The translations under genes were made by a program, and so were the position numbers. The notes under the pieces are model-generated. The model was not told where the DNA came from and searched no databases. It saw only the letters and a program-made list of their open reading frames with translations. From assembly GCF_002775205.1 (NCBI RefSeq), contig NC_036455.1:5370501-5434500 (forward strand): a stretch of DNA of 64,000 nucleotides. The letters are read 5' to 3'. This DNA comes from Xiphophorus maculatus (lineage: Eukaryota > Chordata > Actinopteri > Cyprinodontiformes > Poeciliidae). Of this stretch, positions 1,201 through 60,759 are shown one piece after another (position 1 is the first letter of the stretch; each line of letters begins with the position of its first letter).

Positions 1201-1387
1201 TTCCTCCATTGAAATAATGGAAAGCTGGATTTTCCTCAGTGTGAGGCCCCATAAAAACAAATACATTTTAAGTTTTTCACACCTTTTTAACAGGAGAACA
1301 ATTAATGTACATCTCCTGTAAAGATGTTTCCAAGGCAGGATCAATATATTTACAGACATTTCATTCCTAGAGCATAAATTATTTCAC

Positions 1388-28900: not shown

Positions 28901-30368
28901 ATCACTGGCAGCCAGTGACTGGCGCCCCCTGTCTGTGGTCAGTGCGCCATGCACCCTGGAGTGTCTGGTTCCCTCTGCTCTGCTTTGCGTTGCACTTCCT
29001 CTGCTGGGCCATCATCTGCAGCATCCTCGTTATTTTTGATTATCCAGAACTGCTGGGTATTAAACAGGTAGGAAAGTTAAGAGGGGATAGATTTGTGTTT
29101 TTAAATGTGATCTGAATGAGTTAAATTCATGTTATGTTACTGGTATGTGACATTTCATTGTAAAATACCGTCACACTAACTACAAAATGCGTTTATTTAA
29201 TTTTGAATTCTACCTAAAAATAAAGCAAAACACATTTGGGTGTTAGCATTACTTTTTTTCTGACTTCAGAAGTAGAAACTTTAGTGTATTTTTTTTATTA
29301 TTATTTATAAGTTTGGGTGAGGAAATTATTGAGCATATGTTTATGTTTACTGAGATCCCCATTGGTGGTAAAACAAGCTGACCAAACGTTCTGGAGCTCC
29401 GTTGAGTTGCTAGGTAACGGGGCTCGCTGGGGTTGCTAGGAAACGGTGCAGCGCCCGTAGATTGTAACTTTACAGAGGTTTTTAAAACGACACATTTTGC
29501 AAACAACAAAAAACATTAACTTGTTTCCAAACAGCTTTATGTTTTGGCTTTTTTGTAAGTGTTTTGGCTGTTTTTTAAATATATTTTAAATATCCAACAT
29601 TAATAAACAAAGCAACAGAAACAAAAACTAAAATTAATAATGAAGTTATAAAATTGTCCTTCAATAAAAAGGGCTAGTAGACAACAAAGCTTCAGAGTGA
29701 AGACTTTTATCATCCAGTTTTTGGTAGAAAAACGATAAATCATGCAAGTGGAAAATCTTGAACTTGCAGTCTGTGTCGTTTTAAATCGCTTTTAAAACAA
29801 ATTTTTATTTGTTGGAATTTAATTGAGGGCTGATACTGTAACTTTTCTGTTGTGATGTTTTATTTGGATTTTATTAACTTTTTTCTCTCTCCCTTCTCAT
29901 CCACTCATTTTACCGTGTTATCGTTTTTGTGCAGCACTTTGGTGCAGTTTTGAACCCGTTTATAAAATGCTATATAAATACATTTGACATTGACCTTCAG
30001 TTAATTGATTTATTGTTTTTTGCAGCAGGCCTAATAATGATAAAATCTTCTCCTCCTAGGTGTATTATGAGTGCCTGGGTTTGGGGGACCCTTGGGCCCA
30101 GAAACCAGCTCCGGCTCAGCGCCTGCTGTCCCACCTCCGCCACCCCGTCTGCCTGGAGCTGGCCGTCATCCTGTGGCTGCTGCCGGCCTTTTCCCTGGAC
30201 AGGCTCCTGCTGGCCGGCACCCTGTCGGCCTACGTCGGCCTGGCGCACTCTCTGGACAAACAGGATTTAGCCTACCTGTGCGCCCAGCTTAAAGGCAAGG
30301 TGTGGCTCTTAGCGGAGCCGCAGTGCGGCGGCGTGGAGCAGAACGGCAGCAAGGAGAAGGAGGGTTAA
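22919..30368 (+). CDS. nrm: nurim, inner nuclear membrane protein
   Basis: Nurim is a multi-pass inner-nuclear-membrane protein related to the isoprenylcysteine methyltransferase-type fold; its activity is unsettled. Exons are 22919-23069, 27906-28099, 28891-29067 and 30060-30368, all GT-AG, totalling 276 residues (human about 262). The first hydrophobic segment is followed by GADFIRFVSFRP (human has GVEFVRFTSLRP). Exon 2 has LFVAQHSLMAW, exon 3 ends FDYPELLGIKQ, and exon 4 has LSHLRHPVCLEL and YVGLAHSLDKQDL, all diagnostic. The start ATG (22919) lies in GAAATGG and gives an immediate N-terminal membrane segment. Intron 1 is 4.8 kb and contains a nested gene. Phostensin follows on the same strand, as in the human NRM-PPP1R18 pair. 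Confidence 0.95.
23210..23769 (+). promoter_or_regulatory. CpG-rich CCAAT-box promoter and 5' exon of the nested gene
   Basis: A CpG-rich block holds CCAAT words in CTCCAATGGCG (23295), AGCCAATGTCG (23338) and once in each of four 57-bp repeats. It is followed by a probable noncoding exon ending CTTGCT at about 23766 with donor GTGAGTACCC. Regularly spaced CCAAT boxes are typical of NF-Y promoters. That it drives the exons starting at 24174 is inferred from order and orientation. Confidence 0.5.
23372..23586. repeat. 57-bp tandem repeat, 3.8 near-identical copies
   Basis: Units start at 23372, 23429, 23486 and 23543 (last one 44 bp), each beginning CTATCAATGTCCGCGCTCAC and containing CGGCCAATCACCG. 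Copies look identical, suggesting recent expansion. As 57 is a multiple of three and the unit has few stops, several frames stay open on both strands; these are shadows, not proteins. Confidence 0.9.
24174..25871 (+). CDS. nested multi-exon gene of unknown function (transposon-like family), last part frameshifted
   Basis: In-frame exons with good splice sites are 24174-24323 (starts MSTKPKSHKGMGDGEW directly after an acceptor), 24429-24515 (CDCGFHTVK), 24639-24764, 24934-25104 (Ala-Ser-Thr-Pro repeats), 25188-25292 (LAEYLVELRSKTSLVL) and 25394-25702 (LWQNLLEFDKQR; QWPDCCRLVETIFVRLC). All junctions are phase 0. The last exon then hits a stop (25700-25702). The next frame, to 25871, encodes a Cys-rich tail: CKKCGQFRIAETGHSQYRG, then YCPSNESL and a Lys-rich end. 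From memory, a multi-copy fish family has the same order with a longer middle, so this copy looks internally deleted and frameshifted. I do not know its function. AATAAA at 25867-25872 overlaps the final stop. Confidence 0.55.
25880..26630. other. nurim intron 1, no gene seen
   Basis: AT-rich sequence after the nested gene. No splice-supported exon or recognised repeat. Confidence 0.5.
26636..26672 (-). other. tRNA-like 3' fragment on the minus strand
   Basis: Read on the minus strand, GCGAGTTCGATCCCACCAG resembles a tRNA T-arm with B box (GAGTTCGATCC) and the 3' side of an acceptor stem. The 5' half of a tRNA is not evident. It lies about 80 bp from the tRNA-Lys-like sequence on the other strand. 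Confidence 0.4.
26754..26828 (+). tRNA. tRNA-Lys(CTT)-like, slightly degenerate
   Basis: From the D-loop (AGTCGGTAGAGC) to the 3' end it matches vertebrate tRNA-Lys with anticodon CTT in GACTCTTAATC. The A box TGGCGCAGTCGG (26763-26774), B box GGTTCGAGCCC (26807-26817) and a T5 terminator (26836-26840) are present. The 5' half is altered: position 1 is C, so it mispairs with C72; two extra bases precede the D-stem; and the D-stem has one mismatch. It may be a decayed gene or a tRNA-derived repeat. It lies in nurim intron 1. Confidence 0.7.
27035..27122. mobile_element. fragment of a common fish retroelement
   Basis: The words GACTTTATTGTCATTTTGCA and CAGAACGAAATTTCGTTGCA are widespread in fish genomes as remnants of a non-LTR or SINE-type repeat. 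Only about 90 bp remain, so the family is not certain. Confidence 0.5.
29330..29660 (+). repeat. dispersed repeat with paired X-box-like sites, copy 2
   Basis: It carries GTTGCTAGGTAAC (29406-29418) and GTTGCTAGGAAAC (29432-29444), preceded by AACAAGCTGACCAAACGTTC. It lies in nurim intron 3. See copies near 12440 and 52880. Confidence 0.65.
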
Positions 30369-32080: not shown

Positions 32081-32306
32081 GTAAGTATTTTCTCGCAAAA
32101 GCAGAATCAAAGTTATTTAAATCCCAAACAATATCGCAAACTACTAGTATTATTAGATGTTTTATCGTTATTAGACATGTTAGTGAAACAAAACTGGATT
32201 TTCTGCTAATATTTTTTATTTTTTTTAAATTACAGATAATTCCTTAAATCTCCCGGGAGAGAGGTTTCGCCCACTTTGGCCAAAGAGGTGCACATTTCTT
32301 TCTGTT

Positions 32307-35300
32307 ATGTCTGTTTCCTCTCTGCCAGAATGGAAGCAGCTTCTTCTGGAGAGAAAGAGGAGAGAGGAGGAGCAGCGAGAGAAAAGAGAAAAGGAGGAGG
32401 AGGAGAAGCTGGCCAGCATGCCCGCCTGGAAACGAGGGATCATCCAGCGGAGGAAGGCCAAGCAGGAGAGTTTAGGTGACAGGGACAGAGACATCTGCCT
32501 GCTCCAGGTGGATGCCAGAACTCCCTCTGACTGCCTGAGTGACACTGACAGCTCGATTACGGTCAATCTGGGAAGTGAGACATCGCTCAGTCCGGATCCT
32601 GGGATGTGGCTGGATGCAGAGCCCAAACCTGGAAGCCAGGTGTCGATGGAAACCATTGTTCCAGTCCACGAGAATCCATTTATTCGTACCCAAAGTGTGT
32701 GGAGAAAAGGCAAAGATCTTGAGGCGGCAAATGAGGTGGAGGGAAAACTCTGCGTCAGGTCGCAAGAAGTGGAGGTGAGCAGAGGACGAGATATCGAGCT
32801 GAAAATAGAAAGGTTTAGGGATTTGAGTGAAGGGTGGGAGAAAGAGAAGAGCAGGGAGAAGAGTCTAGGAAAAGAAAAGGAGAACAACCAAGAAGGATGC
32901 GAGAAAGACAAACAACAGTGGAAAGACTCAGTGAAAGAGCAGGAGCTCCTTAAGGGGAAAAAAGAAACAGAGGAAAAAGATGTCGTTCAACCATCTGGTC
33001 AGTTTTCACCGGTTCTTCCTTGCCTTCGAACCATCCGAGCCGACAACATCATCATCATCGAACAGGACCGAAAAGGCAGCGATGAAAGAAGGGCAAGATG
33101 GAGGGAGGCAGAAAGAGAGATGTCCGAGGAGGACCAGCAGGGGAAAAGAGGGATGAAGATGGACCTGAGGGAGATCCTGGCAGGAGGAGGGAGCGTGACG
33201 GAGATCCGAGCTTCTGAAGTTCTGATCATCAAGCCGTCGGTCAGCGTCGAAGAGCGGACAGAAGGGGGAGGAAAGACTAGAGAGGATGGAGAAGGGAAGA
33301 GCAGCTTGGATTTAACCAGAGATACAAAATCAGAAATGTCCTGGCTGAGAGAAAAAGAGAAGGATAAACCCTGGGGTCAGGCGACTGTGATCAATAAAGA
33401 CGAGGGAGGAGACAGCTGTGATGATAACGTGTTTATTGAGAAGGGAGGAAGGGTCAGCAAGCTGCTCAGTAAGTTCGGAGAGCATCCAAAGCCTCCATCT
33501 CGGTCCAAAAGTTCGGATAACTTCCTCCAATCAGGGAGGAGAAAATACTCTGGAGACCAAGATGATCGACAGTCTGAGGAGAGAAAAGCAAACGGAAAGA
33601 ACATGCTGATGAAAAACATCCCTAAACGCTCCTTCAGCTTCTCGGATCGAGTCATTGGTGCTGTTGAAAACGGGTTATTAGACGTAGGTGGTCAAGAGAG
33701 GATTCATCAAGACAAAAATGCTGCTCCTTGGGTGGATGTAGTAGGGGTAGCAAAGCTCAAACTGAGCTGCAAGGAGCGCTTTGGAAAGCAAAGAAATGTA
33801 AAAGCTGAGGATGAAAAAGGAGAAAATCAGAAGAAAAACGATACAGAAATATGGAAGAAACATAGAAGTGAGCTGAAGAAAGTTGAGCCTGTCAATAAGA
33901 GAGCTGCAGAGAAAGTATTGGACGCTGATGGAGACAAGGGGTTCACGGTGGCATCGGTCAAAAACACAGAGGGAATATCGTTTGCGAGAAGAGTGCCAAT
34001 CAGACAAGACGGTAGAGCAAGAGCAGAAAGAGACGCTAGGAAAGAGAAAAGTTTGGAAAAAGATTCAGAAGCAGACGATGGACTGGAAAGAAAAGTGCAA
34101 ACCGAAAGTGATTATGTTGGTGCTTCTTTGGAAGTGTCACCCAATCCCAGTGAAGCTCCTGACAGTCAATGCAAACATAATTCAGCTTTCACAGAGTGCT
34201 CCAGTTTGCTCTCCATGGTCCCAGATCGGATCCCCCACCGAGGACCAGAGTGGAGCGGCACAGGACCTCAAGGCCCTTACCTCATGCACTCCAGTTTACC
34301 CCAACAAAACGAGGAACTTATCAGAAAAATAGAAAAAGTAGGGGACACAACTATCTACATAAACGATAAGGAGGAAAGACGTTACTCTGCTGCACGTGAA
34401 GAGGATCTTCAAACAGGAAGTCATTCTGGACCAGAGAGAGAGATTCCTAGATCTCCAAAACGGATCCCACCTCTTGAGGTTCAAATCCCAAGGACTGTGT
34501 TTTATGTTGCCGAAGAGATGGCGGAGAGAAAAGACAGCGAGTGTCGGAGCGCGGACGGACAAGACTGGGAAGGAGGTCAGAGGGTGGAAAGGAGGGACAG
34601 CTGGAGGATCAGAAAACCTTTGAGCCGGATCGAGTCCCTCCGAGAGAAGATCAGGCAGAGAGAGCTGGATAAGCAAAGAGAAAGAGAGGCCCGGGTGGGA
34701 GATGGGTGTGAAGCTGCTGATGTCTGTGACGCTCCAGCAGCTGAGGACAGGTACGAGATGAGAGGAAGTGAGGTAAAGAAAGAGTGGCAAGCTGTGGCGG
34801 TTCAGACAAGGTCGGCTGAGCCAGAGAGTGTAAAGGGAGAAGCAGCAGAGCAGACATGCTCGGGTGTGTATGACGTCAGACGGGAAGTCGGTGTGTTGAA
34901 AACCAGCCCTCAGCTTCCTGTTTCTGTCCTCAGTTCACAAGACAGCAGCAGAGAGGAAGTGGCAGGCGAGCGCTCGGCTTCTGCCTCTGAAGGCTCCCAG
35001 ATTTCCGAGGATGAAGCTGACCCCCTGAAACATGTAGAGCCGCACCTGGAGCAGCACAGGGCCCAATACGAGAGCGCAGAAGAGGAAGACGAAGAAGAGG
35101 AGGAGGAAGACAGGGAGTTCTCCGAGGAGGAGTTGGAGAAATATACAACTTCTACAGATTCTATAGGATCTCTCTCTCCTTCGCCGCCTCATCCCAACTC
35201 TCTAGCAGCCATGAGTCGGATCTACAACCTGGACACTGTTGGCTCAAGAACTGGCTTATATCTGAGGGACAGGACAGTAGACATCCCATCTTCTGTACAC

Positions 35301-38300
35301 CTTGTTAAAGTGAAGCCGTTTATTTCAAGCTCCCAGCAGGGGGATAGCAAAAGCAAAGCAGGTGACGACATCCGTGGGGTCCAGACGATACAGCAACAGA
35401 TCGAGCAGTTTCAGCTGAAAGAGCAGGAAGTGCTGAAGTCATCTGCAAATACTCCTGCAAAGGAAAGAGAAGCAAAAATACAGCAGAATCCCAAAAAAGA
35501 GTTAAAGTTGCAGGTGAAAGAAGCTGAAGAAACACCAGCACTCAACCCCAAGAAGTCTCCTCAACATCTTTGTTCCCCAACATCTCAGCAGAAGCAAACT
35601 ATCACCATCAACTCCTCATTTTCAAGAACCCAATCACCTGACAACTCCCTGAAACCTACAAACTGTGCTCCGACTCCAGCCTCCTCGCCATGCTCGCCAT
35701 CTCCTGCCAACTCCCCCAGCGTCTCCCCGTCTCCCAGCGCCTCGCCCAAGCTCTTCACCATCAAGAGTGCTTCTGGGGGCCACGTAAAGAGAGGCGCCAC
35801 CATCACAATCACCCCCAGAAAGCCTGCCGGAGGAGGAGCCACGGGGTCGGTGGCGAGGCCCGGAACAGCGGTACCAGCATCAGCATCAGCATCAGCAGGG
35901 TCGGCTAAAGTCCCACCCCAGCAAGCGATGAGCCCCACTGTGGATGAGCCTACCAAGAAGTATCCAACGGCGGAGGAAATTGAGGTGATTGGTGGATATC
36001 AGAATCTGGAGAGGTCCTGTCTGGTCAAGAGTAAAGTGACACCAAAGAGGGTAAGTTTTAGTCTTTAAGTCATATAAAATGGAAGAGCAGCACTCTCTCC
36101 CAAACATATTTACCCAAATATACAGAAGTATATTTAAGTTTGAGTTTAAATTCTCGCCAAAATCAAAGTTTATCACTTTCTGACTTCTCTTGTTGTCAGT
36201 TAGAAAACCTTTTCACTAGGACAGGGGTGTCCAAACTTTTTGCCAATTGGGGCAAAATTGGAGACTCAAAGTAATCGCAGGCCCAAAAAACAACCTAAAA
36301 TCAAGCAATCAACACTTGGAAGCAATTTTTATGATGGTGTATTGGGTCCATTATAGGTAGAAAAACAGGATTAAATTTCTCCCAAAGACTCAGAAATTTT
36401 GTGATATAATTTTCATGTTTTTGTAAAATCTAATCTAAAAGTTTGGTTTTTTTCTAACAAATTTCTGAGATTTTTTTGCAGAAATGTACTATTTACTACT
36501 ACTTTAATTTTGCATGTTTGCTGTATTGACATTATCTTTTCAGTTTTTAAAAATATTTGGGTCCTTTTCTTTCAAAATGTCAGCTATATTTACCCAAGCT
36601 TAAGTAGGAATAAAAGCTGATTGGGGTGCAGCTTTTCAATAAAAGTCTCTGGATGAACTTGGCTTAACCTTTTATTAAAACTTTGCTAGAAAAAGACGAA
36701 TACTTTGTGTTGTATTTTATATTTTCTCGTGTAAGAAAATCATGTTGGCAACCATTTTTGCCCTGATTACAAATTAAAAGTCTCTATCTGCATCTACAGG
36801 CCAAATTTGTATAATTTTTGAACTGCAGCTTGGGGCCGCATAAAATCAGACCAAGGGCCACAAATGACCCACGGGCCACACTTTGGAGACCTCTGCACTA
36901 GGAGAACATCCCCTTTGATCGAGAAGTGTTATCACGGAGAAGGAGCTAAGCCAGTTAAAGCCTTATGAAGCACGACATCTTGATTCTGAGCCATAAACCC
37001 TGGAGCGATCTCCTGCTCCACCTGTGCTCTACTTCCCCCCTATGACATTTAACTTTTATTGCTTTTTGTGTTTTATTGTTTTAAATAAACACACTGAGCA
37101 TGGCACAAAAGCAGATTGAAGCCTACACTGCAAAAACACAAAATATTACCAAGTAATTTCGGTCCAGTTTCTAGCACACTTGAAATAAGACAAAACTAAC
37201 TTAAAAGTAACTTTTTAGCAAGATATAAAGGCTGATTTTAAGTAAATAATTCTTTAATATTGATGGAAAAAGTGCTCGTTTCATTGGTTGATAGATTAAT
37301 TTAGAAATGTTTTGTTATAAGTTTTACAATCTGCCATTGGAACTAGTAATTTTTCATCAATATTAAGGAATTGTTTGCTTAAAACAAGCCTATAACTTTC
37401 TAAAAAGTTACTTTTAAGTTAGTTTTGTCTTATTTCAAGTGTACAAAGATATTTGCTTTATAAACTAGACTAAAAATACTTGGTAAAATTTTGTGTTTTT
37501 GCAGTGTAGGCTTCAGTGGAGGCAGAAAAGCTGCATAGGAAACCACAATGAAGGGCAAAATGTCTTCCCTTTCTTCAGTTTTATTAATTTCGTGTACCTG
37601 CTTGAATGACGATATTTTCTGAGTGAATTCATGCAGGATCACTTCACAGGAACACTTTACTTCACCAATAATTCACTGTACAAAGTTAATTTAACAGCCT
37701 TCTTTCTTCTTTTAACTTTCATATGTAGGAAAATGCAAGAAAGAGTCAAAAGTAAATATTTTCACCATACTGTGAAGATCACTCTTGCTCTTTTTGGACA
37801 TTTCCAGCCTTTTTTAGATAACTCAAGTCGCTGTTTCGGTGTTTTAGCACTTCTAAGCTGCTTGAAATTTCCCCCGTAGACTGCTTCCTCCTCCTCCTGT
37901 AACTGTTGAGTCAGCCTTTGCTGCCTCTCGCACAAATCACTCTTTGTGTGCTCTTGGCTCTGACCCTAGCGGGGGCTTCGGGTCATTAGACTGCAGGTCC
38001 GTCTTTGAGCATGTTGTCCCTCCGAGTGTTTCAGATGACAGGCGGCCAAGTTTTAGTTGGATGTGCATGATTTGGTGAGGAAAATAGACAGTGTTTGAAG
38101 ATCAGGTTGGTATTCGGGTGGCATTGAGAAGCGGTAAAGACAAGATGGCAATTTGTTGATAGCTGTTGTGAGAAGATTAAAGTCTTTTTCTTTGGTCTGA
38201 CAGAAACTCCCTGTCACGCTGTGTGTCTTTACTCGTTTCCTCTTTCAGATGTCTGAGCTTCTCTAAAAAAAAGTATAAGGTTGACAAAACGGAAGAGATG

Positions 38301-45959: not shown

Positions 45960-47029
45960 GTGGTTAAATAAATGTTTCTCAGCAGTTTCTGTTTTGAGTC
46001 AAAATTAAATTACTTTTCCCAGATGTTTTCCCAGATGTATTTTAGTTCTGGTTTCCTTTGAAAATATTGCGAAATGTTGAAATTATGAAACTGAAAACTA
46101 TTTTAATGTCGTTGGCTCTGTTTGTCAGCAGATGTCCCACAGTGTTATTTTCTATTTTTTCCCAAATGTTTTATTGATTCCACTACTGTAAAATATATAC
46201 AGTGAATAAAAACAAACAAAATTGAAACCCAAATAAAAAGATTTCTGTAATAATAAGGTCATCACTATAACCTCAAACTAAATACTTCTAATATTTTTAA
46301 GAATAAGTTTCCATTTGTATTCCATTGTACTATTTTTTAATTAACCTTTTATTCAAATCTAGAAATACTAAAAACAAAATATGTGATTATTTAAACTAAT
46401 CCTTAAATAAACTGCATGAAATGAATGAATGATTTAATTCTATCATATACAAAAAATTACAATTTTGTTAACATTTAATTCACTTTTATGTCAGAAGAAA
46501 TTATGTCAGTTTAATTGTTTACCGGTCCGCAGTTACAGAAAGTAATGACCTATTTTTATTTTAATATGTTGGTTTCACCATTTAAAATAAATCAGGTGCC
46601 ACTTTCACAAGCTATAGTTGACAGTGGCACAGGAAGTATGAAATAATCACATAAATACTACAAGAATTACAGATTATGCAAAGTTAAGTGGAATTTTAAG
46701 GACATAGTGGTGTTTTAAGGACAAAAATGTCAGTAAATCATATGAGTAACAGAAAAAATAACAAAATCAGGCAATAAAATTTTTCCAAATCATCTTCTTT
46801 TAACAGAAAAACTTATTAATTTTAACAAAAACTGCAGGTGTGCGTTTGTTTTTCTTTCAGTGGGAAGCGAATCCTGAAAATTTACCCAAGTAAGAGTAAT
46901 GATACTTTATATAAAGTTACTCAAGTATAGTACAGCGTAGTAAAAAATAATCCTAAAAGCACATTTTTTAAAATAGTTACTGACGTACATGTAATTGGGT
47001 AAATGTAGCTATTTACAACACATTTCCGC
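45960..47029. other. intergenic between phostensin and crat-like gene
   Basis: AT-rich. Around 46870-47010 a phrase (CAAGTAAGAGTAATGATACTT and AAGTTACTCAAGTATAGTAC) resembles a repeat also seen near 51280-51390 and 52120-52210. No exon was seen. Confidence 0.45.
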
Positions 47030-47466
47030 TCTTTAGCGAACCTGCTGTTTACTAGAGTTGGGGGCGCAACAGCGGCACCCTTTGCCCAGACACGGTACTG
47101 CGCCCTGCTTTGGCGGGTCGGTCACGTAGCTGTTTACGGAAACCTTTTTACGTCAGCACGTGCGCCTCAGCGGCGGCAGGCGGTAGTTATCTCCTAGCTT
47201 CTGTCCACTACGTGAGGCTCCGCATGCTCGCTGCCAAAGCGAACAACCACCGGAGAGAAGAGGCGGAGGGGGGACCGCGTTGTTTTCCGCCCCGAAAAAT
47301 CAACTTTTCTCAGAAAGTTGTGCGTCGAGCGATGAGGGCTGCCGTGCGTCTCCATGGCGGAGAAGTAGGAGGAGGTCAGGGCTTCATTTTGGCGATCTGA
47401 CGCCGCGCGGTCTGAGCTATATACGTCTGTGGACGTAAAGGAGAAGGTTCCTTTTTGTGGCCGCAC
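47030..47466 (+). promoter_or_regulatory. CpG-rich promoter and 5' UTR of the crat-like gene
   Basis: A strong local rise in GC and CpG runs from the AT-rich spacer into the first coding exon. Motifs include CACGTAGC and CCGCCCC. The open frames here (47110-47400) lack homology and are probably by-products of the composition. Confidence 0.5.
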
Positions 47467-50400
47467 ATGATCCTAGGAAATATGATTTTCAAGAATATTC
47501 ACCCGAGAACCTGCAGAGCGTGGCTGTCTTTGGTGAGTCTTTTGTTTTTGTCGAGTTGTTTTCGTGCTGTTTCTGTTAACATTCTCGCCTCGCAGAGTGA
47601 CAAAAAGGGGCTTTTCTACCAAAAACATTGCTGGTAATTAAATAACGAGTAGCGGATGTAGTTTCCACCATCATATCTTGTGCATTTCCTGCAGGGGCGC
47701 GATTTAATAACCTCTGGTCAAACTCCAGTGGAAGACCAACCAGGCGCTCAGTAAACAGAAAAACACGCTTCCCTGTTTCTTTTGTGCAGGTTTCCCCGAG
47801 GCAGGAACCGTGTTTCTACTCCACGGTGCCCCCGCAGCCGGTGCCCCCGCTGACCCAGACCCTGCAGGGCTATCTGAGGGCCCTGGAGCCCCTCCTGCCC
47901 CCGGAGGAGCTCAACCACACCCGCAGGATGGTGCAGGAGTTCGGGAGGCCCGGGGGCCTGGGACAGCAGCTGCAGGAGGGGCTGGAGAGGAGAGCCAGGC
48001 TCACCAAGAACTGGGTGTGTGTGAAGCAGGCACATGCTAAAGCTGGAAATGGGCGGATGCATCGCTGCTGTGGTTAAAAGCAAAAAAGACGCGGTCCAAA
48101 GTACATGTAAAACTCATAAGGGACATCTTTGGATATATTTAAACGAGTTAAAGACACATAAATAAACTAATTTACCCAAATAATAACCATGACGTGCTCA
48201 CAAGAACAAAAAGGACCAATTGGAGTCATCTGGTGACAGTTACAGAGCAACATTCAGTTTCATTCTGTAAATATTTTGCCCAATTTTCTAGAAAATGTAT
48301 GTCATTTTTACAAGAGCAAATTAAAGACTTCGTAGATAGAAAAAAAGGAGTAAATTTACGACAAACATCTAACCTAGACGTTTCTGAATGTGAAAAGTCA
48401 ATAATTTGGTGGATGAAGATTTCTGACATTTGAAGCTCAGAAATTTCCTCATTTTTTTCTAGAATTTTTCTCTTATTCATCTAAAAAATATTAGAGTTTT
48501 TTCCTAGCAAATTTAAAACTCAGAAATTTCCACGTTTTTCAAGATTTCTGAGATTAATACAAAAATATTTGAATTTTTTTAGCACATTTTCAACTTTTTA
48601 AACTCATAAAGTTTTACTTTGGCACGCTAGTTAGCATCGTAGCAATCGTTTTCCTGAAATTTTCAGAGGAATGCTTTGGTACCAAAACTCTAAAGTAATG
48701 AAAAAATGTTTAGAAAATGACAAAAAGTTTGAACTTTCTTTGTTGACCTGTGCGTGGGCCTTCCAGGTCTCAGACCTGTGGGTCCAGTGGGCGTACCTGG
48801 AGAGCAGGCAGCCCCTGGCGGTCCACTCCAACCCGGCCATCTCTCTGCCCCGCAGGGACTACAACGACTGGAGGAGCCAGCTGCTGTGAGTTCAGAAACG
48901 GATCACTACACTGTTGTTTCCTACAGTTTGACCCATAATGAGCAGTTAGAAGCTTGTCTGGAGAAGCTGTTTACTTGTGGCGTTCAGACTTCATTATCTG
49001 TGTTTGGTAGTCGAGCCGTTTGCTTTGTTTTCTGCTGGAGAAAAGTCAGATAGTGGAGGCGTCGCATATCAGGAGAGGATGTATTCTGTCTGATAAAAGT
49101 CAAACAGAAGAAGAACCAAAAAACTCTTTTCCTAAACTATTTATTTTATCTCATAGATTACATTGTTTTTATATGTAATGGTTAAACCAGGGATGTCCAA
49201 AGTGTGGCCTGGGGGCCGTTTGTTGCCCTCTGGATGGAGCTAATTTGTGATTAAATTGAGATTTTTACAGACAAATAAAATGTTCTTATGTTTGTTTGTT
49301 TAGATACAAGACAGCAATATTTATTTTACTAATATGTCTGTTGTTTTTTATGATACTTTGCTGAAATCAGCAACCAAACTCTGCCCAACCTTTGTTTAAA
49401 AAAAAAAAAAGGCTAATGAACCCTTAAAAAGTTTTGGAAAATATTTAATACAGCAACTGTGCAAGGCTCTGTTTGTATTTTGGTTCAACAATAATTTACA
49501 GATTTCCTTTTTCAAAAATTAGACTGCTTTGCTTAATTAGTAGATTTTGTTTATAATGCTTGTTATGGTTTTATTAAAATAGTTTAGAGATAAAAACAAC
49601 AAATGTCTTCAGAAATAAAACGTCATTTTTAATTTAAGAAAATGTAGTGCTCACGTTTTCTCAACTTAATAGTTTTTGCACTAATGGCAAAAAGTTTGGA
49701 CACCACTGGGTCAAACCCTATAAATCACGTGTCAAACTCAAGGTCCGGGGGCCAAATCTGGCCCACTGTAGTTTTTTATGTGGCCCTCCAGACTCCAAAT
49801 TACATCAACAAGTCCCTCCAGTTTCTCACAAATCTGTCAAATTCACACAAAATCAACAGATCAACACAGTTTTCCTGAGTTTTACTGCTAATTTTTTCTC
49901 AAAATTTTCAAAAACATTGAGTTAAAGTGACTGCTGCCTCAGTCTTCCTGGATGTCAAGTTAAAGTCTGTGATTAATACAGTAATTTATAAAAAAGTCAC
50001 ATTTAACATCACATATCGTAAAAATTCCTTACAAGTATTTCTAAATTAGCACCACAAAATCTGTGATTTTAATTACAGAAAAACACCAAAACAAGATCCT
50101 GGATGGACTGATCAGTGAGAAAATATGTTCAATATTATTTAATTTTAAGCAACACTTAGTGAATACTAAAACAGCTATTTATTGATAATTTACCAATTCA
50201 TTGGTTTTATCAACACATTCTGGTACAACTGGCCCTTTAAAAACATTCAGATTTTTGATTTGGCCCAAAATGAAAAACAGTTTTCAGCCCTGATTTAAAT
50301 CCATAACATAACGGTAATAATATATTCCTTTCTTCACAGGTTTGCATCTAAATTGATAGCAGCTGTTTTGGACTTCAGAGCCAAAGTGAACAAGTGAGTT

Positions 50401-53400
50401 TTACCTTTTACAATAACTTAGTGAAGACTCTGACACATTGAAGTGATTCCTCTCTGGACTGATTCCTTTCTGGAGTGATTCCTCTCTGGACTGATTCCTC
50501 ACTGGACTGATTCCTCTCTGGAGTGATTCCTCATTGGAGTGATTCCTCTTGCTCTGTTTACATGCTGCATTCGTCTTTTTGCCCTCTTGTTGTTGCCCTT
50601 CTTATGTTTCACACAGCTGGCGTCGCCGTGTGTTTGGCTGCCGTTTGATGATAATCTGTAGCTAAATTTACTTGGACTGACTAAGAGTATCTGCAGCTGA
50701 TCTCAAACCTCAGTGGATTAGAGGAGCAACCTGTTTACCTCCTGATATACATTAGTTATAGAAAGGATTTATTAATAGAATATATTTTTATTGTAGTTTA
50801 ATGAATTGTTTTTGCCTTATTTTTGTTTGCTCACTGCATGGACAGGCGACAATACCTTAAATTCATCATATCTTTTACTATTTGAAGTGAGAACTTCCAT
50901 ATAAGAATTTTGTTTCACCATTGTCACGAGAGATTTCAATTTTTGATGTTAAATTTTTAAAAAAAAATTGATATTTTTGCTATTTTATTTTATTTAACTT
51001 GTGTCTCGTTCTTTCTCCTGAAGTGGTTTTCTGATGGTTTTTTTATGAAAGCGGTGGGAATCCTGACAGCTGCTTGTGTTTGTGTTTCTCTCAGTGGGCA
51101 GCTGCCAGTGGAGTACATGCGAGGGAAGCCTCTGTGCATGGAGCTGTACCCGCTCCTCTTCTCCTCCAGCAGGATTCCCGGACCCAAACACGACTACGTC
51201 GCTCACTACAGCAACTCCCGACGCTCGCCGACCCACATCACTGTGGTCAGGAACTACCAGGTGGGCAGAGCTGGGGCGTGACTGGCATTACTTACTCAAT
51301 TACAGCTACTTCAGTAACGTTTTTGAGAAAACAAAAATCACTTTTAGGAGTGTTTTTGTTGCTCTGTAATTTTTACTTGAGTAATTTTACTATGAAGTAT
51401 CGCTGATCTTACTTGATTCATTATTTGTCCACTGAATGAAAAACAAACTAGTTTTAACCACAAAATTCACCATAAACAAAAACAAACCTGCAGTTTTTGT
51501 TAAAATTTTTTCATTGCAAAAACTCCAAATCTTACCAAGTATATTTAGTTTATTTTGTAGTTCAAATATCTTAGTACACTTGAAATAAAACAAAACTAAC
51601 TTAGAAATAACTTTAGCAAGATATAAAAGCTTGTGAGTAATTAATTCCTTAATACTGATGAAAAAGTGATGGTTACATTTTACTTATAACACATTTTCTC
51701 CATGTTTAATCTGCCAAATGAACTAGTATTTTTTTCATCAACATAAAGGAATTATTTACTTAAAATAAAAGTAAAAATATGAAAATAATAAAAGTAAAAA
51801 GTGCTTTTGAATTTGAAAATAAGCTTTTATACATTGCTGATAAGTTACTTGTTAAGTTAGTTTTGTCTTAATTCAAGTGTACTGAGTTATTTGAAGTAGA
51901 AACTAGACTTAAAATACTTAAGATTGTGTTTTTGTAGTGTTATTGAAAGAAACTGATCTGGAAAATTTTTATTTTGCCTTATTTTATTACCTTTTCTTTT
52001 AATAAATTATTGTCATTTTGGTCCTTTAAATGCCAAAATGTCCACATAACTTTATATTTTGGTCCGTCTGATGTAATTTTTAAATATTAAATGATTGATA
52101 ATTTAATCAGTTACTCAATTCTTGAGCAGACTTTTTACCAAATCCTTTTTTTACTCATACTTGAGTAATTTCTTGGATACTTTTTACTTGTACTTGAGTA
52201 AAAATATGTTGAAGTAGTTGGGAGGCGTCTCTATTTTTAACTATCGGTTTTCATCCGCAGCTCTGAGGTCATGTCCTGATTTTATTGCTACCTGTTTGGT
52301 TTCATGGTAGATTTTGTGTATTTGGCTCAGATGGATGAAAAATAACTCTGATGACCCAGAGAGGAAGGGATGTGTTACTTCCTGTTCAGGAGTTTAAGAG
52401 TCTTGATGACCTTTTGTGACAAAGGAGATACTGAACACAGCATGAGATTCTTCTGATGTTTCAAATAAGTCCAGGCTGGGCCAGAGCTGGAGGCTGAAAT
52501 CCCAACATCTCATGTGAAACATTTTTATCCAGAAGGTGCAGAGACCTGGACCCGGCCAGAACATTTTATTATTCTGGCTGACCTTTACACAAAGTGCTTC
52601 ACTGTCCAGTAGCTGTTTGCCAATCTGGTTTTAGTTTAATGAACTCTGTGCCTCAGTCGACTACAGAGAACCAAATTTATCACACCGGTTTTTTTTTTCT
52701 ATGTTCATGGAGCGACAAAGGTCAACTTTCAAACCCACCACAAAGGTCAGAGTTGAAGGTGCCTTTCAGATTTAGAGTAACTTCCTGTCTTTGTACTGAT
52801 GATCAGCATGAATGTCATGTTAATGAAGTCTTGGTTGTTTTGAGATCATTGTAATGCTATAATAGGCCTGTTAAGCTAGCAACGTTTGCTGGGTGATAAA
52901 TTGTTCTAGGAGTTATTGCTATAACAGATAATATTATATTGTAATGGTATAATATTAACATATAATGGTACGATAATGCAACCAATGATTATTCTGATGA
53001 TTAATTGATTAATCGGACACAAAAATTGGCATTGGGTTTTTTCAAGTAAGAAAAGAAACGTTTTGTTGTCTAAAATGAAATAACATGCCATATGTACCAT
53101 GTGAATATAAAGAATAAAATAAAAAATGCCACTTGAGGAGTTTTTGGTAGAACATATTTACGGACAAAAGTGTTTTTATTTTAAATTCAGAACGTACACG
53201 TACATATTTTGTACAAATTAAAAGCAAGTACGCCTTCTCAAAGATCAGTAAACTTTCATTTCTAACAAACATTTAACAATGAAACTGGAAGACATTTTAA
53301 ATATCCAAACTAAATGAAATGGATACTGTAAACAAAATTTCTCTTTAACAGCGATAAAACAAGCTGACCAAATGTACCAGAGGTCAGTTGGGTTGCTAGG

Positions 53401-56400
53401 TAACGGGGCTCGAGTTGCTAGGAAACGGCCCAGTGCCCACAGAATGTAACTTAACAGTTGGGAGGTTTTTGAAACTCATTTTATAAACACCAAAAAACAT
53501 AAACTTATTGCCTAAAACAGCTGTTTGTTTTTGTAAATGCCTGGGCTGTTTTTAGAAGCAGTTGAGACTCAAATGAAAGTACAAAAATATGATAAGCGCC
53601 CTTTTAATAAAGCAAAATCCTTAATTAAAAAGTTTTCAAAAACTTTTTAATAATCTCCTTACAGACAAGGAATGATGTAAATAAAAAGAAAATCCAATAA
53701 TTGTTGACTTAATCACTAAACATGGTGAGTCTATGTCTCCTCTATGTGATTTAACGGTTCATTTCCTGGTTCTAGTTCTTCCAGCTGGAGGTTTACAACA
53801 GCGACGGCTCGCGGATGACCGAGAGTCAGATTCACAGTCAGCTGCACAGAATCAGGTCTCAGTCCTGGAAGACGGACAAGGAGCCCATGGGCATCCTGAC
53901 CAGCGAGCACCGCCACACATGGGGCGAGGCGTACAACCGCCTGCTGAAAGGTTCGACCGCACATCATCACACTTTCCAAACAGTTCAGTGGTATTTAACT
54001 CTCAATCAAGGCTGTGGTTTAAAGTTGGACCACAAGAGATTACTGTATTTTTTGGGCTGTAAGCCGCTACTTTTTCCCCGCGCTTTGAGCCATGCGGCTT
54101 ATAGCCCTGTGCGGCTTTTCTGTGGATTTTTCTTCAACCACCAGGGGGCTCTTTAGCAGGAAGTGAATCATTGGAAGTCAAAGAAAGTTCTGATTTTCAT
54201 TTAGTACAAGCACATGCTAGCAGCAGGCACGACGGAGAAATGTTTTCAAACTCATACCCCCTCATCATGGAAACAACACGAAGAAGTTCATATGATGCAG
54301 CTTTTAAGTTGAGGGCTATCGATCTGGCGGTACAGATCGATCTGGCGGTACAGATCGATCTGGCGGTACAGATCGATCTGGCGGTACAGATCGATTGCTG
54401 CTGCATGTGAGCTCGGCGTGAACGAATCCATGGTTTGGCGTTGGAGACGGAGGCCTGCGTCCTTAGTAGCAGATTTATTAAGGGCGTCCTTGTGGAATGG
54501 AATGGACTGAGAGCGGCGGAGATACCTGGGGCTTATACATGTCGCTGGTATATAAGCTTTTTTTATATACTAGTTTTTTGTTTTTTTGTAGGTGCGGTTT
54601 ACATTGAGGCTCTATAGTCCGGAAAATACGGTAATCAAAACAGATCAAAATGAACAATTTGGAAACGAAGAGATATTTAATTTTTTTAATTAATCTGAAT
54701 TGTCTTGTGTTTGCATTTGGTAACAACACAAAATTGGACCATCTCATAGTTTTAGGGGAGAGTTTCCTACATATTCAACTTGTGGGAAACATTTGTTTGC
54801 TCTGTGACGCTGCAGCAAAAGGCCATATATGGATATTTTAATTTGACTTGTCTTAGAACCCTCCTCTGGTTTTCATACTGAATTCTTCATCTGTGATAAT
54901 TACCATAAAATGCAATTTCTTCTAGTTTTTTTTAAATTCACAAATAGATTTACAATTTACAAACTGTTTATGCAAGTATGTATATTATCATAAATGCGTA
55001 TCCTTGGTTTGAACAGTCTTAAATGCTTTAAATTTTTAATTAAGGCTGATTGAATGCAGTGTATTATTCCTCAATAGCAGTGAAATAATCCTACACAAGC
55101 TAAGCTTTGCTAGCATTAGCATGCTAAATCAAACCTTGGAAACCTTTTTAATTTTGAGAGCTCTTATTTTCCTGATAGCCACACTCTTTTCACAGTCTGA
55201 AAAAAATATTGCATAGCTCAAAAGCTAGCACAAACATAAAGTTTATTTTATTATTTTTTTATTTATGGTTTTGCTTATTTTTCTCTTTAGATCTATCTGA
55301 AAAAGCTGAAACATAATAAAATACTTCATAATTCAATTAAATAATTGTGCGTAGATGCTAAGGCTAACATTAGCGTGCTAAGGCCAGTGCTAGCTCATAC
55401 TGTAGTTTCCAGTGGCTTTGTTTTCTGAATATCAAGAGTTCTTTTTTTTTTTGGCTGAGCACAGACTTTCAGATTATGCAATCCTTAGAACTGCTGCAAC
55501 ACTCTGTCCAATCTGAATATGTTTTCTTTTTTTCTGCGGCTTCTACTTCATAAGCTAGAAGTGACAGATAACTACAGCAAAGACTATTTTATCTACATAT
55601 TATTGTTGATGATGTATGTAGATATTCAGGAGGAACAATTATTAATGAATGTATTAGCTTATTGATAATTTTGTCTGAAACATTTATTAATCTGCTGCAA
55701 CAAACAATGTTTCCATGTTGAGATTAATGTTAGCATGCTAATGTTAGCTTCCATTGCTAATTATTGGGACTGCAGATGCAGCAACTTTCTTCAGTTTCTT
55801 ATTCTGATTGAGAGAGATGGATGTTTTAGACATGCATTTTTGAATAAATGTAAAAAAAACATTTCTTGAATATTTTCTGTTTCTTTTTCTCTTTCTTTAG
55901 ACAAACTGAACCAGGAGTCGGTGCAGATGATTGAGACGGGTCTTTTCTCGCTGTGCTTGGATTCTCCCGTCATGAGGATATCGGATGAGAAGTATGTGCA
56001 CACGCTCGCATTCTCGGCTTTCTGTGTTTGCTGAACTTGTTGCGTAATCGTCTCTGCAGATATGATTGTGTCGCTTGTTGACGTTTGCTGCAGTGAGCAA
56101 TTGTCTTTTCCTGTGTTTGAACTGAAACTATTGTGAAACGCTGCGCTGTTTGCATTAGAGACCCTTAAGAATAATGTTTTTTTATTTTTATTTTATTCGA
56201 ATCTCATTCTTTTGGATTTTATCTTGCAGGTACGCCAGCCGTAAGGCGGCTCAGATTCTACATGGAGGCGGGACGTACTCCAACAGCGGCAACCGTTGGT
56301 TTGACAAAACTCTGCAGGTGTGTCTGGTCACCAGTAATGTAGCCACTTTGGAGAAGCTGATTGTATTTGACTCTGACCGGTATTTGTTTAAACAGTTTGT

Positions 56401-59400
56401 GGTGGGCGAGGACGGATCATGGGGCCTCCTGTACGAACAGGCCACAGCCGAGGGCCCGCCCATAGCCAGCCTGCTGCACCACATAGAGGAGTACTGGTGA
56501 GATAAAACGGTCTGGAAAATACTCCTACTATAACAAATACTACTATGCTGGATGAGCACCAGAGCTGGTGGACAAGCTTGTACACGAATGAAACGGCCTC
56601 AATAACTATAATCTGGTGTAAACAGGGTTTTAAAATGATTCAATCACTTTTAAATGGGTGCTTGAAATCCTTAGAAATGCTTGAATTCAAATAATGTTTT
56701 CAGAGTTTGTAAACTGCACAGCTTTGTAATAAAGTACAATCTAGCATTTGATTATAACCAGAATTTGGAAAGCAATCCTTTGTGATTTATTGTGTAACTG
56801 GAAAAAGTTTCTGTTATTAAAATTCGGGATTTATTTGAGTGTTTTGTTCTCAGACCAGTCAGGTGTGCTGGGAGTGTCTGAGTCATTTCAAAACATACAT
56901 TTTGTTAGATGTTTAGTTCACCTGGTCCCAGCAATGTAGAATGCTGCAAGATATTATTATAATAACAGTAATAAATTCATATAATAGTGGAATAAAACCA
57001 TTGTTTTTAGTTCATTTGTGTTGCTCTATCTCCTAAATTTGGTGCTGCAAAAATGTTAAAACTTATTTCATTTAATTTTCCTTTGGGATCAATAAAGTGT
57101 TTTTGAATTTGAGTTTGAATGTAATTAAAAATGGTTGAAAAATGTTCATAACAGCTTCATAATTTCTTCATAAATTATGAAGAAATTTATGAAGGATTCT
57201 TCATAAATCCTTCTTTATGAAGAATCCTTCATGTTCATGACAGATTTTATGCCACATCTCTTCAAATGAAGCGTCGCCAATATTTTCTGCTCATGAATAT
57301 TTTTCTGTTTGTCGGCAGTGAGATGCCCGACCCGAAGAGGGCGCCGCTCGTTCCTCTGCCGATGCCCAAGAAGCTTTACTTCCACATTGACCGGGACATC
57401 AAGAGGGACATCGAGCAGGCCAAGCAGAACCTCGACATGTGAGCGTGTTGTTTTTTTTTACCCAACCAGGCCCAACTTCCTCCTGCTGGATTTAGCAAAT
57501 CTAACGAGTAAAACGAAATGAGTCGATGTTTTCCTGACCACAGATTGAACTCAGAACCTTCGTGTTGAGCTGCATATTTTCAGAACGATCATAAATCATT
57601 CGTCTGCTCACTGCAGTGAGGAGAGAAAGTTTTATTTTCCTGCTGGATGAAAGAACATGACGGATATTTCCTCTGTTTGCTTCATCTGATCATAAACGCT
57701 ATGCAAAACTTTTTTAGCACATTTGAAATTAATTTCTTTAGCTCTGAACTGACAGATAAGTTCAGATGGAATATTTTCTTTTTATTATTCTTGGATTTTC
57801 ACAGATAAAGGGGAAAAAATATGTTGATTATTTTAGCAGCTGAAGCCAAAGCCTTGTTTTAGCATCAAAATCAACCATTAACAGGTAGAAAAATGGCAAA
57901 TATGAATAAAAAAACAAACACAAGAAGTTAAACTTTAAACATAAAATGTTATAATAAAACTAAAACATGAATTATGAGAGCAGGGATTATAAAATGTGGA
58001 TTAAAATTGGTGAAAGGTAAATCAAATCTGATCAATGCAGACATGTTTACTGGTGAAATTTTATTTTATTTCTTGAAGCTTTTTGGTTGTAATTTAAGTT
58101 TTATGTTATTAAATATAATGTTTAATAATATGACGTACTAATATAATTTAATATTTACATATTATGCCTTAATATTTATTATATTATAAATATTGTATTA
58201 AATTATATAATATGTCATTTATGATTTATTTTAATGTAATAATATTACATTTTATAATATTGCAAAAATATTTTTTGCAATATTTTAAATATTTTTTGCT
58301 GCTTAATTTCCCTTTGGGATTAATAAAGTATTTTTTAATTGAATTGAATTCAGGCCTCTTCTGGAATTTGATTAAGATATTTTCCCATTCTTAATAAGAA
58401 TGAGAAAAGATATTCAAATATTATATTTTAAATATATTTGTATTTCCATATACATACACTGTCACTCAGTGGTATTCAGACGACTGCTGCATAAATAGTT
58501 ACTGCAAATTCACAGTGAAATTAAGAATATTTGACTATTTGTAAACCTGGAAGTTGTGTGTTTTGCTCCTTTTATAACCAGATAAAATGATCTGATTATA
58601 ATCCTACAGAAGATTGCTGTAGAAGTTGTGATTAAATTATTGTTTATATTCTTTCAGTCTGATCAACGACCTCGACGTCCACGTCTTCAACTTCAAAAGG
58701 TTCGGCAAAGAGCTTCCTAAGAAGCACAACTTGAGTCCAAACTCTTTCATCCAGGTGGCTCTGCAGCTGTCCTACTTCAGGTCGGTACCAGGACCACCAT
58801 AAAAATACGATCACATTTATTTTAAAAAGCTTCTGATTTAAAACAAAAGTCTTACTAGCACCTGTTGGAGGTTTGTAGCAGCACCAAATGTAAGACCTAA
58901 ACAGAACCTGCTGCAGATGAGCTGCATAACCACTAGAGGGTGCTCTGCTGGGATTTTTGCAATAGACACTAAATACAAAAACACTTCACAAGATTTTGTG
59001 TTTTTTGCATTTTATGTAGAATACTGCTTCATTAATAACACAAATCAATGATGCTGAAACTGTCTTTTTTTTTAGTTCATTTGTATTGTGTTTATCTCCA
59101 AGGTTTGGTGCTGGAAAAGTTTGATAACGTGCCTTGAAAATGCTTGAAAAGTTCTTGAATTCCTCTGTGCGAACGCCGCGGTGTGTTTACCGTCTGTGAC
59201 GTTTTCCTGCAGAGTTCACAGCGAGGTTTGTCCTGCCTGCGACATCGCCTCACAGAGGATGTTCAGAGGAGGACGGACCGAGTACATCCGCTCGCCCACA
59301 AACCAGGCGCTCAAGTTCATCCTGGCCTTCGACGATCGGACCGTAGCGGTGAGGAAAGGTTTGCTGGAACTCGTCCGCGTCTTTCTGATTCTTTAGCTCT

Positions 59401-60759
59401 GACCCTTCATGTCTCTCTGCAGAGAGAAGCGAAGCTGGAGCTTCTCAGAGAAGCAGTGGACGCGTACTCAGAGCTGACCGCGCAGGTAAATGCCTCAAGA
59501 AGCTGCTTTCCTCAGCTTCTTGTGTGATCTGGAGTCTCAGTTGGTAATGTTTTTCTCCTGGTGCCGCTCAGGCTCTGAGAGGACACGGCATCGACCGCCA
59601 CCTGCTGGGGCTCAAGCTGCAGGCCATCGAGGAAGGACTCAGCATTCCCAAAATCTTCATGGACACGGCTTACGGCCTGGCCACGCACTGGAAGCTGCGG
59701 ACAGGACAGGTCTGTTCTCACACAGCTGGACGACGTTTGTAGATTTAAATGTTTTCATTTTATTCAGCATGTGTGTGTGTGGTATTTTTATTTCTCACTC
59801 ATTCGTTTGGGGAAAATCCAGCTTCAAGGTTGTTTAATTTACCATCAGTCACATTTTTTTCTGGATTTCCTTTTTGTACTGACTGTTTAGTCGCATTTAT
59901 TACGACGGCATATTAGGGCCACTGTTGATAGAAAAAAAGGAGCAAATTTCCACCAAAAAACTTTTTAGATTAATCTCAGAAATACATTTTCTAGAAAAAA
60001 CTTGGAAATTTCTGAGTTTCAAAAATAGAAAATTTTCTAGAAAAAATAATGCAGATATTTTGATATTAATCACCAAAATACATTTTCTACAAAAACATGG
60101 AAATCTCCTAGCTTGAAAAGTTGAAAATTTGATAGAAAAAAGTCTGAAAATTTTCCAGGTTTTTACTAGAAAATTTCTAAGATTAATCTAAAAATGTCTT
60201 ATTTTATTTCTGGCATTTTTTTAACTTTTGGAACTCAGAAATTTTGTAGTTTATTTTCTAGAAAATTTATTTCTGAGATTAATATAAAATGTTCTTGTTT
60301 CTAGAAAATTTCTGATACTTTTTTATGAAAATGTACCCATTTTTTTCTTATATCCATATAAGCCGTGTTACATTTTTTCTCAGAGCATTTTGAAACATTG
60401 AAATAAATCTATTATGAGTTATTCCAGCATCAGATAAATGTGGTTGATTTAAGTTAATAGGCTCACTTTTAGTTAATATTTGCCAACAGGTTTTGATGTG
60501 ATGGAAGATGTTTTACATTTATTTCGAGAACTAATCCTTTGTTTTGCGTCTGCAGGTTCCCACCAACACCGACAGCGTGATGTGTTTCGGGCCGCTCGTT
60601 CCCGACGGTTACGCCGTGTGCTACAACCCGCAGGCGGACCACGTCCACTTCGCCGTCACCGCCTTCAACTGCTGCGAGGAGACCAACGCAGAGACTATGG
60701 CTCGCACTCTGAAGGAAACGCTGTGCGACCTGCAGGAGCTGCTGCAGCCTACCGTGTAG
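47467..60759 (+). CDS. crat: carnitine O-acetyltransferase-like protein with catalytic His replaced by Gln
   Basis: CRAT transfers acetyl groups between CoA and carnitine. Exons 47467-47532, 47790-48014, 48767-48885, 50340-50393, 51095-51260, 53776-53950, 55901-55991, 56230-56317, 56396-56496, 57319-57438, 58658-58780, 59213-59348, 59423-59485, 59572-59709 and 60556-60759 give 622 residues with consistent phases; human is 626. Diagnostic matches: PGPKHDYVAHYSN, LHGGGTYSNSGNRWFDKTLQ, PLPMPKKL, DIEQAKQNLD, DRHLLGLKLQAIEE, GPLVPDGYAVCYNP. The N-terminus (Arg and hydrophobic residues, then CFYSTVPP) suits a mitochondrial presequence. The C-terminus LLQPTV lacks the human peroxisomal AKL-type signal. 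Where CRATs have YEHAAAEGPP this protein has YEQATAEGPP (Gln343, CAG at 56438-56440), which removes the general base. A Tyr-to-Cys and an SxS-to-AxT change hit positions recalled as carnitine contacts. It may be a pseudoenzyme or neofunctionalised paralogue; a sequencing error is possible but would have to explain several changes. Confidence 0.9.
49188..49712. mobile_element. repeat with GGGGTGTCCAAACTTTTT ends, copy 3
   Basis: Left end ACCAGGGATGTCCAAAGTGT; right end GCAAAAAGTTTGGACACCAC. It lies in the intron before crat-like exon 50340-50393, next to a hAT-like element. Confidence 0.6.
49722..50292. mobile_element. hAT-like non-autonomous element (GTGTCAAACTC family)
   Basis: It starts ACGTGTCAAACTCAAGGTCC and ends TTTGGCCCAAAATGAAAAAC, the reverse of the start of the copy at 4008. 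The internal phrase GGATGGACTGATCAGTG matches, inverted, ACTGATCAGTCCATCCAGG near 4190. Confidence 0.65.
50444..50547. repeat. 16-bp minisatellite (GATTCCTCTCTGGAST)n
   Basis: About six and a half imperfect 16-bp units in a crat-like intron, 50 bp after the donor of exon 50340-50393. Confidence 0.85.
51511..51942. mobile_element. palindromic MITE copy
   Basis: Left end ATTGCAAAAACTCCAAATCT; right end TTGTGTTTTTGTAGTGT. The arms contain TTGAAATAAAACAAAAC and its inverse. It lies in a crat-like intron. Confidence 0.65.
52880..53700 (+). repeat. dispersed repeat with paired X-box-like sites, copy 3
   Basis: It holds GTTGCTAGGTAAC (53392-53404) and GTTGCTAGGAAAC (53414-53426), plus AACTGGAAGACATTTTAAAT shared, inverted, with copy 1. 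It lies shortly upstream of crat-like exon 53776-53950. The outer limits are approximate. Confidence 0.6.
54041..54633 (+). mobile_element. pogo/Tigger-like non-autonomous element with an HTH remnant
   Basis: The ends TACTGTATTTTTTGGGCTGT and, inverted, TACCGTATTTTCCGGACTAT form terminal inverted repeats. Inside, a frame reads METTRRSSYDAAFKLRAIDL, the usual N-terminal helix-turn-helix of fish pogo-type transposases. An 18-bp repeat (four IDLAVQ units, about 54318-54393) follows. The next HTH segment (LGVNESMVWRWRRRP) is in another frame. The catalytic domain is absent, so the copy is dead. Confidence 0.75.
55085..55765. repeat. cluster of GCTAGCATTAGCATGCTAA words
   Basis: Variants of TTAGCATGCTAA and GCTAACATTAGC occur at about 55105, 55355 and 55728 in a crat-like intron. 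They are related to the cluster at 44090-44830. No larger unit could be defined. Confidence 0.4.
56318..56395 (+). other. 78-bp in-frame, stop-free intron
   Basis: Starts GTGTGT and ends TTAAACAG, precisely where CRATs read KTLQ then F. Its length is a multiple of three and the frame has no stop, so retention would insert 26 residues just before the active-site strand. Confidence 0.8.
59890..60420. repeat. A/T-rich AGATTAATCTCAGAAAT repeat
   Basis: Multiple imperfect units such as TTTTCTAGAAAAAACTTGGA and GAGATTAATATAAAA in the last crat-like intron. Related blocks lie at 630-1200, 42890-43100 and 48280-48600. Confidence 0.55.

Follow-up and report, generated by a model that had tools for sequence, protein, structure and literature searches.

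The window, a stretch of 64,000 nucleotides from Xiphophorus maculatus (contig NC_036455.1, positions 5,370,501 to 5,434,500 of the forward strand), carries an intact gene of the carnitine acetyltransferase (CRAT) type in which the catalytic histidine, His343, is replaced by glutamine, together with changes at five further active-site positions. We consider it probable that the gene encodes a CRAT-fold protein that is under selection and lacks a working active site, an old duplicate with a non-catalytic mitochondrial role. In this family the catalytic His is regarded as universal, and even CPT1C, which has been called a pseudoenzyme, keeps it; if our reading is true, the gene would be a case in nature where binding has been uncoupled from catalysis in acetyl-CoA metabolism.

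The gene was modeled by hand splicing as 15 exons encoding 622 residues, with no internal stops and GT-AG borders at all 14 introns. The earlier note had described 15 exons splicing in frame, and this was confirmed by the splice model and, for the 13 junctions from exon 2 onward, by profile-guided spliced alignment using human CRAT, mouse CRAT and the window protein as guides. Pfam analysis of the protein identified PF00755 as the sole family (607.7 bits, profile positions 2-574 of 574), and a phmmer search of PDB sequences aligned query residues 35-619 with residues 14-598 of human CRAT (PDB ID: 1nm8) without a gap. Based on the gapless alignment and an offset of +21 in CRAT numbering, taken from an excerpt of PMC11852590, query numbers equal CRAT numbers. 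Full-length match to the Pfam profile and gapless alignment to solved CRAT structures identify the gene, judged by its sequence, as a member by descent of PF00755 and of its CRAT branch. The coding span and its parts are as follows; exons 2 to 14 derive from the splice model and spliced alignment, and exons 1 and 15 from the splice model.

47001-47700, no strand assigned: CpG-island-like stretch over exon 1, candidate promoter (GC 0.46-0.57, CpG observed/expected 1.03-1.12)
47467-60759, + strand: full coding region, crat-like gene, 622 aa (spliced translation, PF00755)
47467-47532, + strand: exon 1, Arg/Lys-rich N-terminal leader
47790-48014, + strand: exon 2
48767-48885, + strand: exon 3, W102 and Y107 kept
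50340-50393, + strand: exon 4
51095-51260, + strand: exon 5
53776-53950, + strand: exon 6
55901-55991, + strand: exon 7
55992-56229, + strand: intron 7 (junction comparison among five crat/chat models)
56230-56317, + strand: exon 8
56396-56496, + strand: exon 9, holds Gln343 and Glu347
57319-57438, + strand: exon 10
58658-58780, + strand: exon 11, K419 and K423 kept
59213-59348, + strand: exon 12, T465 kept
59423-59485, + strand: exon 13
59572-59709, + strand: exon 14, R518 kept
60556-60759, + strand: exon 15 and stop, C terminus LLQPTV

By eye, the arginine-rich leader encoded by exon 1 appears to be of mitochondrial type, and the C terminus, LLQPTV, lacks a peroxisomal SKL-type signal (PTS1); from these two features we infer a mitochondrial location. 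Comparison of five crat/chat models of this genome found the junction of intron 7 (299.2) to be absent from the other four, namely crat on contigs C8 and C12 and chat on contigs C10 and C22 (cratC8, cratC12, chatC10 and chatC22), and intron 7 may have been gained by the window gene. The exon that it splits is unsplit in both other crats (179 nt) and in both chats. Intron 8 (56318-56395) comprises 78 bases that are in frame and free of stops and could be read as coding, yet its position is common to both crats and both chats, and it was therefore kept as an intron. A near-perfect tandem repeat (18-base unit, 4.3 copies) is present inside intron 6 at 54318-54395.

The codons of interest within the active site lie in exons 9, 11, 12 and 14:

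56438-56440, + strand: CAG, Gln343, replacing the catalytic His (codon, translation, CRAT alignment)
58707-58709, + strand: AAA, K419 kept (codon count)
58719-58721, + strand: AAG, K423 kept (codon count)
58740-58742, + strand: AAC, Asn430, replacing Asp (CRAT alignment)
59238-59240, + strand: TGC, Cys452, replacing Tyr (CRAT alignment)
59241-59243, + strand: GAC, Asp453, replacing Glu (CRAT alignment)
59698-59706, + strand: CGG ACA GGA, Arg552-Thr553-Gly554, in place of Ser-Thr-Ser (CRAT alignment)

As previously reported from the letters alone, positions 56438-56440 read CAG on the + strand, giving Gln343 within the motif YEQATAEGPP, and Glu347, four residues later, is retained. The claim in the earlier note that the gene bears no other lesion holds for stops and frameshifts and fails for the active site, where alignment to CRAT reveals D430N, Y452C, E453D, S552R and S554G in addition to H343Q. 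Retained are K419, K423, W102, Y107, E347, T465, R518, T553, M564 and F566. We take Y452 to be the ligand of the carnitine carboxylate, and T465, R518, S552 and S554 to contribute to carnitine and oxyanion binding, with Ser554 as the oxyanion residue. On these presumed roles the carnitine ligands are disrupted by Y452C, S552R and S554G, with T465, R518 and T553 left in place. An excerpt of PMC11852590 reports that H343, K419, K423, D430 and E453 are shared by carnitine acyltransferases and choline acetyltransferase (ChAT) as conserved residues, and describes H343 as the general base, D430 as binding the pantothenic arm of CoA and E453 as hydrogen-bonded to D430, with mutation of D430 or E453 able to lower activity. 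Three of these five residues are changed in the window gene: the catalytic His343 of a functional carnitine O-acetyltransferase is Gln, and the D430-E453 pair at the CoA arm is N430 and D453. Both lysines that bind the 3'-phosphate of CoA, K419 and K423, are present. Catalytic residues are thus gone from an otherwise intact homolog, as in a pseudoenzyme, and the protein very likely lacks normal CRAT activity, a prediction that does not rest on one codon because five further active-site changes accompany it.

To place these changes among the other family members of the fish, PF00755 was searched for in the assembly that contains the window (101 contigs, 704 Mb in total), and 76 of 89 candidates were scored. 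At least 81 exon-level matches were obtained, grouped into at least 12 loci including the window. By alignment these comprise cpt2 (C9), four cpt1 genes (C2 twice, C10 and C16), crot (C3), chat on C10 and C22, crat on C8 and C12, a locus joined to an asparaginase domain (L022, on C16) and the window gene. All 11 other family loci found encode His343 and Asp430, the alignment of L022 being weak, and 10 of the 11 encode Tyr452 and Glu453, the exception being the same weakly aligned L022 (His and Thr). Ser554 is present in all eight alignable loci (L016 and L022 are uncovered there and L020 is misaligned). The earlier note had proposed a search for a separate canonical crat in the same genome, and two were found: cratC8 and cratC12 keep H343, D430, Y452, E453 and S554, which disposes of a missing canonical crat as an explanation. 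Identity to human CRAT is 54% for the window gene, 65% for cratC8 and 70% for cratC12. The canonical cratC12 (L012, C12:25531500-25541400) itself carries K419R and S552Y, which may shift its affinity for CoA or carnitine; position 552 is therefore weak evidence.

We considered whether the replacement of His343 could be an error of assembly or base calling in an ordinary crat gene. CAG is a single base from CAC, but the five other active-site codons that differ are spread over exons 11, 12 and 14, and the identity of the window gene to human CRAT falls below that of the other two crats; we give this explanation almost no weight, and discarded an error in one codon as a full account of the gene. 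A hidden alternative exon encoding His was sought by tblastn of the region at E values up to 1, and none was found. No second crat exon set was found in the window region or on contig C13 among the 76 of 89 candidates scored in the PF00755 search, and a fish-contamination scan of 84,980 prokaryote genomes found no contaminant copy.

Residual or altered acyltransfer, with Gln343 or a network of water molecules standing in for His, could draw on the retained E347, T465, R518, W102, Y107 and CoA lysines. The same His-to-Gln change in fly choline acetyltransferase reportedly abolished activity, which counts against this possibility. The residue lost is, moreover, the general base according to the excerpt of PMC11852590, and D430, E453, Y452 and S554 are changed too, so that we regard residual activity as very unlikely.

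Another suggestion of the earlier note was a new chemistry, for which the positive evidence is limited to the new Cys at 452. One could envisage that Cys452, beside Asp453 in an emptied carnitine/acyl pocket, accepts or hydrolyzes an acyl group from CoA: 10 of the 11 other loci have Tyr where this gene has Cys, and K419, K423, M564 and F566 are kept. However, the conserved base at 343 is gone, and Ser554, presumably the oxyanion residue, has become Gly. CPT1C offers an argument on each side, as excerpts of PMC6092487 describe it as a family member able to act as a thioesterase, and its activity as dependent on its His470. We judge such a chemistry highly improbable.

Conservation across the family was used to gauge constraint on the window gene. 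Twelve other family sequences (L022 excluded) have 54 invariant columns, counting those with at least nine letters, and the window gene departs at nine of them: L35V, Q172L, H343Q, D430N, A440S, Y452C, E453D, G575A and I585V. Leave-one-out counts were 1/55 for cratC8, 1/55 for cratC12, and 2/56 and 0/54 for the chats, with cpt2 (16/70) and crot (12/65) departing more often than the window gene; none of these departures in other genes falls at 343, 430, 452 or 453. The difference between the window gene and either crat is significant (Fisher P 0.008). Within these 54 columns, active-site residues named in the literature were lost at three of four positions compared with six of the other 50 (hypergeometric P 0.012, on small numbers).

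A codon model was fitted to the five crat/chat genes of this genome on the tree ((C8,C12),window,(chats)). An ω of 1 over the whole window branch was rejected (2ΔlnL 49.7), with the branch length at its bound and dS saturated, which makes the ω value itself unreliable; a separate ω for the window branch was not significantly better than one ω for all (2ΔlnL 2.3). At this saturation of dS, a recent relaxation of the gene keeps some probability. In a simulation of neutral substitution starting from the window coding sequence, none of 2000 runs was still free of stops by the time that five marked residues had changed. Where the window gene differs at sites invariant in CRAT, the substitutions are conservative, with a mean BLOSUM62 score of 0.49 versus -0.59 for random single-base changes. 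Of 191 sites conserved in human CRAT, cratC8 and the chats, the window gene departs at 39 and cratC12 at 18; the same count for cratC8, with cratC12 placed in the reference group, is 16/189. The rate for the window gene is about twice that of its crat paralogs, indicating that some general relaxation is present. Identity to human CRAT within five residues of the six altered sites, the sites themselves omitted, is 24/41 (0.585), compared with 294/538 (0.546) elsewhere; neighboring residues are no more diverged than the rest, which argues against wider erosion of the active site. An apparent relaxation specific to the active site, based on 51% versus 72% identity near the six positions, disappeared once those positions were omitted.

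These data bear on the proposal that the gene is a dead enzyme lately freed from selection and on its way to becoming a pseudogene, with no new role. The raised departure at conserved sites, the lower Pfam score (607.7 bits versus 676.6 and 686.9 for the two canonical crats) and the presence of canonical crat genes to do the work all point in that direction. Against it, 622 codons and 14 introns have been kept without a stop, frameshift or broken splice site, no neutral run preserved the frame for long enough, neutrality over the whole branch was rejected (with dS saturated), and a CpG-island-like promoter stretch covers exon 1. Recent decay is on this evidence unlikely, and the gene has likely been retained by selection. 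The earlier reading of the gene as a pseudoenzyme gains support from the joint change of six active-site positions in an intact gene of a genome that has two canonical crats.

The chromosomal setting of the three crats speaks to their origin. The crat gene on C8 lies ∼4 kb from ptpa, the sole PTPA locus found, on a contig that also carries a Miga gene, and its protein ends in SKL; for the gene on C12, the examined crat stretch lies no more than 10 kb from a gene of the IER family (PF05760, 421 bits), and the protein lacks SKL. PTPA and IER5L are neighbors of human CRAT, and with ptpa on C8 and an IER gene on C12 the two genes look like a teleost pair. In zebrafish, according to an excerpt of PMC8919083, Crata carries a PTS1 and Cratb lacks one. 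The window gene, unlike this pair, adjoins a phostensin-type gene (PF13914, PF13916), which lies upstream and is itself preceded by nurim-like exons. The former includes a 1266-aa open frame at 32268-36065 (+ strand), encoding a PP1 regulator of the phostensin/taperin type that carries Phostensin_N and Phostensin domains, with further exons recognized by eye to about 45.1 kb. The exons at about 26500-30300 (+ strand), which gave no Pfam match, resemble those of nurim. A second phostensin-type gene is found on C8 at 4.7 Mb, and atat1 lies 19.8 Mb from the window on the same contig. A flotillin search gave no match in the genome and was uninformative, since fish have flotillins. In the bat MHC the order ATAT1, DHX16, PPP1R18, NRM, MDC1, TUBB, FLOT1, IER3 is given in an excerpted table (PMC4753418), and CRAT is absent among the entries that the excerpt covers. 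Together, the phostensin and nurim-like neighbors, atat1 and the bat MHC order suggest that the window gene belongs to an MHC-type paralogon, as a sister of CRAT of 2R age.

In the best tree the window gene falls outside human, mouse, C8 and C12 CRAT, with support of 59-67, and an AU test keeps eight of the 10 topologies tested for its placement. With identities of just 51 and 55% to cratC8 and cratC12, the gene was rejected as a recent copy of either. The gene is probably an old third crat, which would trace back to an ancient duplicate, probably of 2R age, in an MHC-type neighborhood and not to the teleost crata/cratb pair.

Relative to human CRAT (1nm8), the window protein is gapless over 585 residues and 54% identical, with the CoA lysines, T465 and R518 kept, and differs by H343Q, D430N, Y452C, E453D, S552R and S554G. 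It shares with the teleost crata/cratb proteins (cratC8/cratC12) the fold and its gene all modeled intron positions bar intron 7, and differs from them in lacking the canonical H343, D430, Y452, E453 and S554 and, in the case of cratC8, the terminal SKL. The nearest precedent for a non-classical family member is CPT1C, termed a pseudoenzyme in the abstract of PMC5934389, for which acyltransfer is described as lost or very low and a non-classical role has been proposed. The two differ in that CPT1C retains His470, on which its reported effect depends (excerpt of PMC6092487), whereas the window protein has no such His. Among the titles and abstracts listed, none described a carnitine acetyltransferase without its His, which is no proof of absence. 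One of the three crat genes of this fish is probably without activity, and annotation of fish crat genes should accordingly not presume it.

In the reading we favor, of a third fish crat with a complete choline/carnitine acyltransferase fold and an active site that does not work, the protein would be unable to move acetyl between CoA and carnitine and would be kept by selection for a non-catalytic mitochondrial role. The most likely such role would be the binding of CoA or a short acyl-CoA, whether for sensing, for buffering or as a partner protein. Of the sensors suggested in the earlier note, one for acyl-carnitine is disfavored by Y452C, S552R and S554G, which fall in what we take to be the carnitine/acyl pocket, and a CoA sensor is compatible with the retained K419 and K423. 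CoA binding itself is a reasonable possibility that we put forward tentatively. A more elaborate scenario appears doubtful as a whole: a 2R duplicate of the CRAT region, retained in fish beside ppp1r18/nrm and lost in mammals, whose product would be a non-catalytic mitochondrial CoA/acyl-CoA sensor, reading or buffering the acetyl-CoA/CoA ratio set by the two active paralogs.

Degraded ligand residues are also seen in L022 (C16:18745500-18751500, - strand), likewise a PF00755 member of this genome, which shows Y452H and E453T in a weak alignment. It differs from the window gene in keeping His343 in that alignment and in being fused in frame to an asparaginase domain. The single open frame holds a divergent Carn_acyltransf domain (68 bits) and an Asparaginase_2 domain (272 bits), an unusual combination for a fish gene. 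Elsewhere in the window, several CDCP1-type CUB-domain exons (PF23668, PF23665) at 1353-11456 (- strand) represent one or more cdcp1-like genes, and a near-perfect tandem repeat with a 57-base unit in 3.9 copies occupies 23367-23586.
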